Shown in pieces: positions 1,118 through 20,641 of a stretch of 20,641 nt of DNA. The stretch is taken from IMG/VR virus record IMGVR_UViG_3300042991_000658, positions 1 through 20,641 of that record; one strand, written 5' to 3'. The notes below the pieces were generated by a model, which worked only from the letters and a program-made list of their open reading frames with translations, made no database searches and was not told where the DNA came from. The position numbers and the translations under genes were made by a program. Source of the DNA: a virus. Position 1 is the first letter of the stretch; the number at the start of each line of letters is the position of its first letter.

Positions 1118-1176
1118 AGCGACGGCCCTAAACGTCGCAAGGTGACTGTAGCACCTTAACAATCGAATAGGGACAG

Positions 1177-1225
1177 AGCGGGTGATCGGACTCGAACCGA
1201 CGATATCTTGCTTGGGAAGCAAGCG
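1177..1225 (-). other. Partial tRNA-Gly(CCC) 3' part, candidate attP core
   Basis: On the minus strand this reads as tRNA positions about 25-73: anticodon stem CTTGC/GCAAG around loop TTCCCAA (anticodon CCC), a 5-nt variable loop, T-arm GTCGG-TTCGAGT-CCGAT, the acceptor strand CACCCGC and discriminator T. The D-arm and the partner acceptor strand GCGGGTG are absent upstream, so it is not a full tRNA gene. Elements that integrate into tRNA genes carry such a 3' copy in attP next to the integrase, which restores the host tRNA on integration. The integrase stop codon is 11 bp away. If the element were integrated, the same fragment would mark one chromosomal junction. Confidence 0.85.
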
Positions 1226-3800: not shown

Positions 3801-4184
3801 ATGCCGCGCAAATCTGTAAAAGAGAACATTCGGCGCATTTACGAACAGCGCGCTGACAACTACAAACATCATTTTGAATGTCGGTTACAAATCAAAACGA
3901 TGAGTGAAGACACGCGCAACACTTACGCCCACGCCGCCGGCCACCTGCAAACACCTAAGCTTTCTGTCTTTGGAGCCACCGACTACACCAGGGACGAAGG
4001 AGCTGTCTTGATTCAACTCGCCAATCAGATCGGAAGTCGTGACCCCTGGCTGATCAATCCCTGGTATACGAGCGAAGCCGGCTGGAAAGCGCTTCAGGAA
4101 GCCTGGGACAACCTGCCCGAGCCAGTAGATTTTCTCACAAGCAAACGCGAGTTATCCACAGTTCAGAACGAGAGTACTACCTAA
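3801..4184 (+). CDS. Hypothetical protein ending at the origin region
   Basis: This 127-aa protein has a basic N-terminus (MPRKSVKENIRRIYEQRADN) and Trp-rich C-terminal half (DPWLINPWYTSEAGWKALQEAW). I do not recognise the family. It is the last gene before the DnaA-box cluster, and the first perfect box (4152-4160) lies inside its 3' coding end, so its C-terminal sequence is partly shaped by that site. Position beside the candidate origin makes a replication-related role worth testing, but no primase, helicase or initiator motif is visible. Confidence 0.7.
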   Translation: MPRKSVKENIRRIYEQRADNYKHHFECRLQIKTMSEDTRNTYAHAAGHLQTPKLSVFGATDYTRDEGAVLIQLANQIGSRDPWLINPWYTSEAGWKALQEAWDNLPEPVDFLTSKRELSTVQNESTT

Positions 4185-4435
4185 ACTACGAGAGCAAGAG
4201 TTAAATGCTGTCAAAGTTATGCACAGCCCTGTGGATAACTGCCAAGTTATCCACAGGGCGGACAAGTAAAACCAGACAGTACAGGCCAAAGTAAAAAGTT
4301 ATCCACAGTGTATGTGGATAAATCACAAAGTTATCCACAGGTGGCTGTGGATAAAATGATAGTAAATTTCTCTCGTGAAAATGGAAAGGCGAAATGATTT
4401 CTACTCGCAGACCAAAAGTTATCCACATATCCACA
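4152..4435. other. Candidate replication origin: DnaA-box cluster
   Basis: Eight perfect copies of TTATCCACA or its complement occur at 4152-4160, 4230-4238 (-), 4247-4255, 4299-4307, 4313-4321 (-), 4331-4339, 4346-4354 (-) and 4419-4427. TTATGCACA at 4217-4225 and ATATCCACA at 4427-4435 are near matches. Three pairs form inverted repeats: CCCTGTGGATAACT with AGTTATCCACAGGG around 4 nt, 4299-4321 around 5 nt, and 4331-4354 around 6 nt. This density matches a DnaA-dependent origin. No replication initiator gene is recognisable in the window, so the element may rely on host DnaA. A DnaA-titrating site is the main alternative. Confidence 0.75.
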
Positions 4436-15835: not shown

Positions 15836-15912
15836 TTGCTCTTGTATTTCAGGGGGACTTTTGAAGGTCGGATAATTTTTGGTTTTGAACTTGCTCTTGC
15901 ATTTCAGGGGGA
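15836..15912. repeat. 22-bp direct repeat pair
   Basis: TTGCTCTTGTATTTCAGGGG at 15836-15855 and its copy, with C for T at base 10, at 15891-15910 are 55 bp apart; identity continues for two more bases. The second copy runs into the 31-bp repeat that flanks the methyltransferase gene. The surrounding 264 bases after the SH3 gene hold no gene that I can support. Confidence 0.8.
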
Positions 15913-16018: not shown

Positions 16019-16765
16019 ATGGAACTTGTGTTGTCCCTTTTTCCCGGTATTGATTTGCTCGGCCGCGGCTTCGAGGCCGAAGGTTTTTGCGTTGTGCGCG
16101 GTCCCGATTTGGTTTGGGGCGGCGATATTCGAACGTTCCACGCGCCACGTGGTCGGTTCGATGGCGTGATCGGGGGGAGTCCGTGCCAGGATTTCAGCCG
16201 CGCGAATCGGAGGCCTGGGGGATATAGCCTTGAAATGCTTCACGAGTTCGAGCGTGTAGTGGCAGAGTGCTGGCCGGCGTGGTGGTTGTTGGAGAATGTT
16301 CCCACGGTGCCGGATGCGAGAGTGGAAGGTTACGCGGTTCAACGTCTCGACCTGAACGCGCGGGAGTGTGGCCTGCGGCAGGTGCGCCTGCGACATTTTC
16401 AGTTCGGCTCGCTGGACGGGTCTGTTATCTCTCCTGAACGGCGTGCGCCTGTGGGGAGTCCGCTGGCGATTGCGTTGGCTTCGGAAGGTGAGCGGACGGA
16501 TCGGCGTGGCTGGCCTGATTTTTGCGAAGCGCAGGGATTGCCGCGAGATTTCGATGTTGAGATGAGCGTCTCTGCAAAGTATCGTGCGGTGGGGAACGGA
16601 GTCCCGGTGCCGATGGCGCGCGTGATTGCACGTGCGATAGCGGAGCGCAAGGTGTCACACGGCTTGCGGCTGTGCGCGTGCGGGTGTGGTCGTACAGTTA
16701 CAGGTAAGCAGGTGATGGCGGGGGCGGGTTGTAGGAAGCGGATGCAGCGCAGGCGGCGTGACTGA
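16019..16765 (+). CDS. C5-cytosine DNA methyltransferase with CACGCG tail (second copy)
   Basis: This 248-aa enzyme has motif I LSLFPGIDLLGRGFEAEGF, catalytic Cys56 in GGSPCQDFS, ENVP (92-95), QVRLRHF (121-127), and motif X AVGNGVPVPMARVIARAI. The target-recognition part is short. After motif X comes an extra region, RLCACGCGRTV (217-227) then AGCRKRMQRRRRD, which looks like a zinc-binding DNA-contact tail and resembles the mini-protein at 3444. Expression should be leaderless from 15984. It is clearly different from the first methyltransferase, so the two probably have different target sites. No nuclease gene is adjacent. Confidence 0.92.
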   Translation: MELVLSLFPGIDLLGRGFEAEGFCVVRGPDLVWGGDIRTFHAPRGRFDGVIGGSPCQDFSRANRRPGGYSLEMLHEFERVVAECWPAWWLLENVPTVPDARVEGYAVQRLDLNARECGLRQVRLRHFQFGSLDGSVISPERRAPVGSPLAIALASEGERTDRRGWPDFCEAQGLPRDFDVEMSVSAKYRAVGNGVPVPMARVIARAIAERKVSHGLRLCACGCGRTVTGKQVMAGAGCRKRMQRRRRD

Positions 16766-18643: not shown

Positions 18644-19225
18644 CTAAAAGAGCGCGCCCTGAACGGGCGGAGCGAACAACCAAAACGACTGCCCGAGCCA
18701 CGAGACCAGAACGGACGGGACGGCCAAAACGGGCGCGGATGACAAGCCGACGCATGACACCAGAACAGGGATGCCAGCGCGCAGAGCATGACGAGCGACC
18801 TTGAGCGAGCCGACACCAGGCGCAAAAAACACGGCGGCAGAACAGCCAGCGAGGGCGGCAACCGAACGAGCCATGAGACGAGCGACCAGAGGCACGGACA
18901 ACGAGCCGCCAGCCAGCCAGGACACAGACCCGCCGAGGGACGCGAAACGCTGAACGGTGGAAACCGCCGAACCGCCAAAAGCACCTGCCCCTGACGGGGC
19001 GAATGCGGCGAAAACATGGCTGGAATAGGGGTGGGGATCAAACCCCAACGCCAGCACAGCCGCCTGATCTGCGCCAGTGGCACAGCCGACATGGACGGCA
19101 TGAGTGCAAGCCTGCGAGAACGACTGACACGCAACCCAGGCGGGAGAACCCGCGACCAGGGCGCGCGAGCCGCCAACGAGAACGGACGCATCAGCGGGAA
19201 GGGAGAAGGGGAGAGGGTGAGACAT
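18644..19225 (-). CDS. SLOG / DprA-like Rossmann-fold protein
   Basis: This 193-aa protein resembles the SLOG superfamily (DprA/Smf, LOG, YpsA). It starts with a strand and GSR turn (ASVLVGGSRALVAG, 13-26), then HAVHVGCATGADQAAVLALG (42-61), the classic strand-GCA.GAD-helix nucleotide site. An APSGAGAFGG segment, GGS at 98-100 and 106-108, and AVFFAPGVGSLKVARHALRAGIPV follow. SLOG proteins bind or process nucleotides, or in DprA bind ssDNA and load RecA. ATG 19225 is chosen because the first strand follows closely; the frame extends upstream into probable non-coding DNA. It stands alone between hairpin-rich spacers. Confidence 0.75.
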   Translation of the reverse strand: MSHPLPFSLPADASVLVGGSRALVAGSPAWVACQSFSQACTHAVHVGCATGADQAAVLALGFDPHPYSSHVFAAFAPSGAGAFGGSAVSTVQRFASLGGSVSWLAGGSLSVPLVARLMARSVAALAGCSAAVFFAPGVGSLKVARHALRAGIPVLVSCVGLSSAPVLAVPSVLVSWLGQSFWLFAPPVQGALF

Positions 19226-19267
19226 GGAGACCTTGCCTTTGGGGAACGGATGATTGAACATGCCCAC

Positions 19268-19296
19268 ATGATAACAGAAGAGGGAAGAAAAAGCAA
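19268..19296 (-). promoter_or_regulatory. Possible promoter of the SLOG gene
   Basis: On the minus strand TTGCTT (19291-19296), a 17-bp spacer and TATCAT (19268-19273) lie about 43 bases before ATG 19225. The -10 is good and the -35 is weak. Confidence 0.4.
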
Positions 19297-19581
19297 GCAA
19301 AAATAGCATGACAAATGACACCAAAAAGACATGACAAAGCGGACAAAATTGACCCAAAAACCCAACACGCAAAACCAAAGAAAATGGAACGGAAACGGCA
19401 GGGAGTTGGATTGGCTTGGGGGAGAGAAATGCCTGGGAGACCGCGACAACTTTCAGGGCGGGAAGAAGCGAACCTGTCCTTACGCGCCCGCTCCGTAGCA
19501 CAAGAAAACCCCCACCCAAAAACCCACACGCAAGAACCTGAAGGCGGAAGCAAACGGCAAAAGCAACCACGGGGCATAACG
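19297..19581. other. Spacer with no supported gene
   Basis: Open frames exist on both strands, but none has a ribosome-binding site or a recognisable protein pattern. The sequence is A-rich on the plus strand to about 19400. I see no clear repeat or structure here. Confidence 0.5.
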
Positions 19582-19704
19582 ATGCATGGGTGGGCGCTGG
19601 CCGCAACTGTTTACCAAAAGTGCCGTTGGGGGCGTTCTTCCCCCAATGGAACTTTTGGGACGGTTGCGAGTCCAGCGAGTGTACTCACGTCCCATCCCAT
19701 GCTA
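19582..19704. repeat. Long imperfect palindrome
   Basis: The left arm (about 19582-19634) pairs with the complement of the right arm (about 19640-19704) around a short TTCTT-type loop. Matching blocks include GCATGGG, TGGG, CGCTGG, CGCAAC, CCAAAAGT and TTGGGGG. The right arm has about 13 extra bases containing GTACTCACGTCC, a piece also present in the 41-bp repeat. It could form a long hairpin RNA or cruciform. A decayed inverted-repeat mobile element is an alternative. Confidence 0.7.
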
Positions 19705-19828
19705 CGATGCCCAACGTGGTGCTTGCCGTATGCTACCCGCCCACAGGTACAGCGGTGTTTTGGGGAGTTGCGCGAAGGATGGAGGATAACAGAACCAACT
19801 TCGGGGAAGGGAATTGCTTTTGAACTGG

Positions 19829-20035
19829 GTGGCTCTTGAACTGTGTGGGTTATAGAAAAGAACTGAGTGGCACGTACAGAAGTGTATGGTACTTTCAAGA
19901 GTGTATGGGTTATAGAAAAGAACTGAGTGGCACGTACAGAAGTGTATGGGGCTTTCAAGAGTGTATGGGTTATAGAAAAGAACTGAGTGGCTCTTTCAGA
20001 AGTGCATGGCTCTTTCAGAGGTGCATGGGGCTTTC
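19829..20035. repeat. 60-bp tandem repeats made of 20-bp sub-repeats (iteron-like)
   Basis: A 60-bp unit containing GGTTATAGAAAAGAACTGAG recurs at about 19848, 19908 and 19968. Each unit consists of three related sub-repeats of the form (G/A)TGG followed by CTTTCAGAAG-like sequence. The TGG marks are spaced 19, 19 and 22 bp in rotation, close to two helical turns, so bound proteins would sit on one DNA face. The array ends just upstream of the promoter of the RHH-like gene. This resembles plasmid iterons, a partition centromere or an operator array. Confidence 0.85.
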
Positions 20036-20076
20036 GCGCACGTTTGCCGAAACAATGAGGAACAATTCCGCAAGCA

Positions 20077-20106
20077 TTGACAAGAAGCAAGACGTAAGCG
20101 TATAAT
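20077..20106 (+). promoter_or_regulatory. Consensus promoter of the RHH-like gene
   Basis: TTGACA (20077-20082), an 18-bp spacer and TATAAT (20101-20106). A normal leader with AGGAG lies between the -10 and ATG 20128, unlike the two leaderless promoters in the window. Confidence 0.8.
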
Positions 20107-20127
20107 GCAAGCAAGGAGAAATAAACG

Positions 20128-20358
20128 ATGGAAGAACAAGTGAAATACATAACAAAGAAATCTGCCAAGAAAATGGGTCGGCACGAAGTGGAACATGCGC
20201 GCGTCGGTCGGCTGACGGTCAGGTGGTCGGACCTGGATGCGGAGCGGCTGGCGCGCGTGCAGGCGTTGCTCTCGCCGCGGGTGGCGATCTCGCAGGGGAA
20301 AGCGATGTCGGCGGCGCTGGAATTGGCAGAGAAGGCGTTGCAGGCGAGGCCTGAATAG
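20128..20358 (+). CDS. Ribbon-helix-helix-like DNA-binding protein
   Basis: This 76-aa basic protein has one predicted strand (GRLTVRW, about 27-33) followed by two helices (SDLDAERLARVQALLSPRV and ISQGKAMSAALELAEKAL), the order of ribbon-helix-helix repressors such as CopG, Arc or ParR. Those act as dimers on short direct or inverted repeats. The lysine-rich N-terminus (VKYITKKSAKKMGRH) could contact DNA. The iteron-like array sits directly upstream, a natural candidate target. AGGAG lies 9 nt before the ATG. Copy control, partition and self-regulation are all possible; no ParM or ParA partner is visible. Confidence 0.65.
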   Translation: MEEQVKYITKKSAKKMGRHEVEHARVGRLTVRWSDLDAERLARVQALLSPRVAISQGKAMSAALELAEKALQARPE

Positions 20359-20384: not shown

Positions 20385-20641
20385 CACGGCATGGTACGTG
20401 AACTTCGTGGACGTGTACTCACGTCCACGGCATGGCACGTGAACTTCGTGGCCGTGTACCCACGTCCACGGCATGGCACGTGAACTTCGTGGCCGTGTAC
20501 CCACGTCCACGGCATGGCACGTGAACTTCGTGGCCGTGTACCCACGTCCACGGCATGGCACGTGAACTTCGTGGACGTGTACCCACGTCCACGGCATGGC
20601 ACGTGAACTTCGTGGCCGTGTACCCACGTCCACGGCATGGC
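20385..20641. repeat. 41-bp tandem repeat array, right end
   Basis: About six 41-bp units in the same orientation as the left array, starting 27 bases after the RHH-like gene and running off the window. The first unit has TACTC, then three GGCCGTG units, one GGACGTG unit and a last partial unit. If the ends are joined, the repeat phase continues with only two bases (AC) missing. Confidence 0.95.

Follow-up and report, generated by a model that had tools for sequence, protein, structure and literature searches.

Does a prominent array of direct repeats upstream of a small gene serve as the binding site of that gene's own product? This question is posed by one end of an IMG/VR virus record, analysed here over its full length of 20,641 bases (the window), in which such an array precedes a gene for an RHH-like protein of 76 amino acids. 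The initial annotation likened the arrangement to a partition centromere with a ParR-type protein or to a copy-control operator. Comparison with related phages suggests instead two nearby promoters as the protein's sites of action, the array being a variable extra. Since the relatives point to action at the promoters and the array varies, the repeat-array locus is probably an ordinary one, illustrating that a striking repeat array does not have to be bound by the product of the gene next to it.

The array itself is real and stands well above chance. TRF reported a period of 60 with 3.1 copies, 90% matches and a score of 290 at 19842-20029, and autocorrelation reached 0.77 at lag 60 and 0.51 at lag 19, compared with a maximum of 0.38-0.39 in 2000 dinucleotide shuffles. 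Anchoring on TGN(A/G)TGG gives eleven sub-repeats (at 19826, 19842, 19864, 19883, 19902, 19924, 19943, 19962, 19984, 20003 and 20022), made up of three 60-bp units plus flanking copies and spaced by 16 bp and then by three rounds of 22, 19 and 19 bp. This bears out the ten or more sub-repeats in 60-bp units that had been proposed, three to each unit; the start given at 19829 truly lies slightly further left, and the sub-repeats measure 19-22 bp rather than 20 bp. TG..TGG is kept in all eleven copies even though the sub-repeats differ at up to half of their bases. One 60-bp unit corresponds to 5.7 helical turns, which places the units out of exact helical phase. The array ends about 40 bp before a promoter with a 12/12 consensus match, so that the repeats do lie upstream of a consensus promoter and a small gene, as originally described (Table 1). 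Two other readings of the array were discarded: structured RNA was ruled out by a folding z of 0.15, and an 89-aa frame with a TTG start (19836-20105), which would make the array a coding repeat, was set aside by inspection as it has no ribosome site.

Table 1. Features at and around the repeat array (positions in the window)
Feature	Position	Strand	Basis or remark
Perfect 17-bp palindrome, some 10 bp past the SLOG stop codon	18596..18633	.	Intercistronic
SLOG-type gene (193 aa), transcribed away from the RHH gene	18644..19225	-	Relatives known from 12 viral contigs and a Methylocaldum plasmid
Promoter region of the divergent SLOG gene; operator-like repeats at 19291 (AAGCAAGCAAAA), 19304 and 19327	19240..19340	-	Matrix from relatives
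Giant imperfect hairpin, flanked by the SLOG promoter and the array	19566..19715	.	-94.5 kcal/mol, z -8.8
Repeat array: 11 sub-repeats (16-22 bp), three in each 60-bp unit, with the core GAA(C/G)TGN(A/G)TGG	19816..20041	+	TRF, autocorrelation, anchor motif
RHH-gene promoter and proposed operator: four GCAAG words (20070, 20087, 20107, 20111)	20065..20116	+	Consensus match, matrix
Gene for the 76-aa RHH-like protein	20128..20358	+	Conserved family; low-confidence 24-residue N-terminal tail
41-bp tandem array, downstream of the 76-aa gene	20385..20641	.	TRF; runs on at 1-182 if circular

That the open reading frame next to the array is a real gene follows from its exact consensus promoter (TTGACA-N18-TATAAT at 20077-20106), the AGGAG ribosome site and ATG downstream of it, and the existence of homologues. 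Within this promoter, the four GCAAG words fall inside 46 bp. The encoded protein is 33-45% identical to four homologues in related phage contigs, and the small gene noted beside the array is thereby a conserved one. Conventional searches had little to offer: profiles from Pfam, PHROG and NCBIfam gave zero matches to the protein, the RHH_1 profile (PF01402) was unmatched in the record while its control matched in 8 genomes, the sole PDB sequence match was ribosomal and irrelevant, and phage and plasmid collections gave no useful match to it.

The predicted fold is compatible with the RHH class, whose defining feature was taken to be a beta-alpha-alpha chain that dimerises by swapping one strand. 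AF2, run on a five-sequence alignment, returned a mean pLDDT of 71 (core 84-88, tail about 47; single sequence, a poor 54) and placed an extended segment ahead of helices at residues 35-48 and 56-73, consistent with the RHH-like fold initially suggested. The protein ends three residues past the second of these helices, leaving the model without a ParR-type C-terminal domain. Foldseek against the PDB found no match at E 0.001 or better; the only solved structures that align reasonably with the model are TCP domains (Z 2.5-3.6), which have been described as RHH-type (PMC10049435), and two phage proteins of about 50 aa match it with probabilities of 0.93 and 0.91 at E 0.4-0.7. An RHH fold for the 76-aa protein is in our judgement quite probable, a likely assignment on the strength of a low-to-moderate-confidence model and matches reaching Z 3.6.

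Relatives became accessible through the divergently oriented neighbour, whose product we take to be of the SLOG type from its motifs VLVGGSRA and GCATGADQA. Scans with one protein at a time (RHH, portal or integrase) had no hits, and related phages were reached only via a SLOG alignment and afterwards via RHH alignments. The SLOG alignment, consisting of the window protein and a Methylocaldum plasmid frame of about 45% identity, retrieved twelve related loci on contigs that also encode counterparts of terminase, portal, capsid, integrase and other proteins of the window, so several of the contigs are true relatives. An RHH homologue adjoins the SLOG gene in two of them, and a scan with the RHH alignment added two more, bringing the family to five members with the window. 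The RHH gene is divergent from SLOG in L003, L006 and L028, as it is in the window; L030 has an RHH homologue and gave no SLOG match. A small and so far unnamed phage protein family can now be defined together with its likely operator; the phage group in question also has the SLOG gene and a giant hairpin conserved in position, with hairpins of different sequence at the equivalent place in L003, L005, L006, L028 and L007. As a side observation, L028 (10650-10800) and L030 (after the RHH gene) share a conserved, RNA-like non-coding stretch (GGGGGCTGGCTCGGTGTGCCGTCCGTTGA...) that has zero matches in Rfam.

Across these relatives, the place of the array is common property while its sequence is not. 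An array matrix found zero sites upstream of the RHH homologues, and the array sequence itself was not found in the relatives. Their spacers carry different short repeats at this place, TCTTTCTAAAAAC twice in L006 and TCTAAAAACT in L030, words that occur nowhere else in the contigs searched, and further unrelated arrays lie beside SLOG in L005 (42 bp, at the contig end and adjoining the hairpin) and L014 (64 bp). Nevertheless, 9-letter words common to the window spacer and the relatives are more numerous than in shuffles (p=0.005). Among them is AATTGCTTTTGA, which L028 shares with the left edge of the window array, and part of the array edge may thus be conserved.

What the relatives do conserve is a TGCAAGACAA-like direct repeat of 10 bp at the RHH promoter and at the divergent promoter, where copies recur at 10-bp steps. 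The shared repeat of L003 is TACAATGCAATACAAA, present twice (16 bp exact), both promoters of L030 share AATGCAAGACAA (12 bp exact) and those of L028 share ACAATG(C/T)AAGACAAA (14/15), each at p<=0.005 against shuffles; the repeat common to the L006 promoters is weaker (p=0.025). The window's own two promoters, compared only with each other, gave a best match that is not significant (p=0.22), and the window joins this pattern by way of a matrix built from eleven repeat copies of the relatives and none of its own. Among about 41,000 window positions, this matrix ranks the SLOG promoter first (AAGCAAGCAAAA at 19291) and the RHH promoter eighth; 6 of its top 50 sites fall in the two promoters (mean of column-permuted matrices 1.88, with 2/200 as high) and 0 of them within the array. 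A correspondence between the array sub-repeats and the relatives' motif (CTTTCTAAAAACTG), good by eye, was dropped: a matrix of that motif placed 1 of its top 100 sites in the array, and 23/100 permuted matrices scored as high. The claim that the 76-aa protein binds the array therefore finds no support, since the conserved cis-element is this other, 10-bp-spaced promoter repeat, which is missing from the array, and since the array's sequence was not found in relatives. A different regulator, for instance the LexA-like protein encoded at 2445-2669, could also be the one that uses the candidate operator.

The array, promoter, gene family, divergent order and shared promoter repeats were all computed directly. 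From them, we infer dimerisation, DNA binding, repression and dispensability of the array. Most likely, the 76-aa protein would be a homodimeric autorepressor whose dimer binds TGCAAGACAA-like short direct repeats, represented in the window by GCAAG(C/A)(A/C) words. The bound repeats would overlap the promoter of the 76-aa gene as well as, on its -35 side, the divergent SLOG-operon promoter, and binding there would keep the two transcripts at a fixed level. Lying between the giant hairpin and the RHH promoter, the 60-bp array would be a lineage-specific amplification of a spacer in which repeats arise readily throughout the family, and a neutral or accessory upstream element rather than the main operator. 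Taken as a whole, an autoregulated RHH control locus on two divergent promoters at 19226-20358, with an accessory or neutral array, is our preferred reading, one whose chances we regard as evenly balanced.

Several known systems resemble this proposal. AvtR of Acidianus filamentous virus 6 is likewise a small virus-encoded RHH-type protein, and it controls its own and an adjacent promoter via several intergenic sites, as proposed here; yet AvtR is a monomer with two RHH units that uses imperfect inverted repeats in an archaeal virus (PMC5569661), whereas the window protein has one RHH-like unit and would use direct repeats in a bacterial-type promoter. Type Ib centromere-binding proteins such as ParG and omega are of similar size and have an unstructured N-terminal tail, a C-terminal RHH, direct repeats near the promoter and a repressor role (PMC5016525); for the window protein, the tail and the RHH are predicted and the repressor role is proposed. 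Their layout agrees with the AF2 model (tail pLDDT about 47), with no sequence relation detected; as differences, no ParA-type ATPase was found in the record and the array is not conserved along with the protein. Type II ParR-parC combines an RHH-type DNA binder, predicted here, with an upstream iteron array, but ParR has a C-terminal domain for ParM (PMC5016525), whereas the 76-aa protein stops behind its second predicted helix and the window array neither flanks nor overlaps the promoter. A partition centromere of the ParR type is conceivable but unsupported. Finally, StbA of plasmid R388 stabilises its plasmid through direct repeats, the stbDRs, upstream of the gene for this small DNA-binding protein, without needing an ATPase partner (PMC3098194); the stbDRs, unlike the window array, consist of two sets of five 9-bp repeats that surround the promoter.

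The window, a small temperate phage probably present in its excised circular form, carries genes for integrase, excisionase-like protein, terminase, portal and protease-capsid fusion. Both record ends share an exact 80-bp repeat inside the 41-bp tandem array; the record is likely a circular genome broken within that array, whose repeats make the end overlap less decisive. Directly after the integrase gene lies a tRNA 3′ half (about 1165-1222, minus strand; read as tRNA-Gly, anticodon CCC), followed by a CTATTCGATTGTTAAGGTGC stretch of which slightly changed copies follow different tRNA halves in related phages. Together they look like attP, so that the DNA on both sides is phage DNA. Genome scans matched no genome contig that would point to a host, and scans for the array word, for the 41-bp unit and for the tRNA half gave zero matches. 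A cluster of DnaA boxes (TTATCCACA) at 4152-4435 comprises eight exact copies, some as inverted pairs, plus two with one mismatch, where 0.16 exact boxes would be expected in the whole window. Not seen in the related contigs, this cluster is a candidate oriC-like origin or DnaA-titration site and, on its sequence, a better origin candidate than the repeat array.

Against this background, it is unlikely that the array is a binding platform for the RHH protein, a centromere or extended operator on which dimers cooperate along 19-22-bp iterons in motor-less segregation or copy control like that of R388 StbA. A series of eleven direct repeats at regular spacing ahead of a small RHH-like gene, the small size and disordered N-terminal tail reminiscent of type Ib proteins and a DnaA-box cluster suggesting that the phage can replicate as a circle would all fit, and because StbA works through direct repeats without an ATPase, a motor-less system is compatible with the sequence. 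Standing in the way are an array that is not conserved alongside the protein and lacks the conserved promoter motif, units out of helical phase, the missing motor-binding domain and a phage equipped with integrase and attP. Nor was a ParA-type motor ATPase found, in keeping with the initial annotation, which saw no motor ATPase: the ParA-type profile PF13614 matched 0/7 records (the window and relatives, possibly fragments; control 14/14). The profile of the actin-like ATPase ParM (PF06406) gave 0/7 with a control that matched nowhere either. The specific version, a phage that also persists as a circle with a DnaA origin and whose one RHH protein turns the 11-copy array into a motor-less centromere or a site of copy control, is very unlikely in our estimate; if true, a bound array would provide a case of motor-less segregation in a phage.

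Somewhat less doubtful, albeit still short of probable, is a neutral satellite, i.e. a tandem duplication in an unconstrained intergenic spacer without any bound protein. The 41-bp array on the other side of the 76-aa gene, the unrelated arrays of L005 and L014, the unconserved array sequence and its lack of RNA structure speak in its favour; the regular spacing, the TG..TGG kept in every copy and the recurrence of repeat-rich spacers at the same place in the family do not. That the array and giant hairpin form an origin of replication or a packaging element, occupied by some other protein of the phage or its host, seems highly improbable: the hairpin is conserved in position and no replication initiator was recognised among the proteins scanned, but relatives keep the hairpin without the array, and the eight exact DnaA boxes 16 kb away (about 4.5 kb on the circle) form the stronger origin candidate.

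The palindrome beyond the SLOG gene had been put forward as a second target of the protein. The sub-repeat word AGTGCATGG is indeed present in its arms, but it also occurs exactly at 1887, and the sharing of array 9-mers with the rest of the window is at chance level (18 observed, shuffle mean 18.7). Together with its location just past the SLOG stop codon, this led us to reject it as a target; it is best read as an intercistronic hairpin, and hairpins of other sequence occupy the same junction in L003 and L006.

Minor observations concern other parts of the window. The units of the 41-bp array contain inner 10-bp inverted arms, and a second exact consensus promoter (TTGACA-N17-TATAAT) lies at 757-785, upstream of the excisionase-like gene. 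At 15836-15902 (minus strand), two operator-like words, ATACAAGAGCAA and ATGCAAGAGCAA, stand 55 bp apart upstream of a methyltransferase gene at 16019 and its TTGACA-N17-TAGGAT promoter, making this a possible third regulated promoter.
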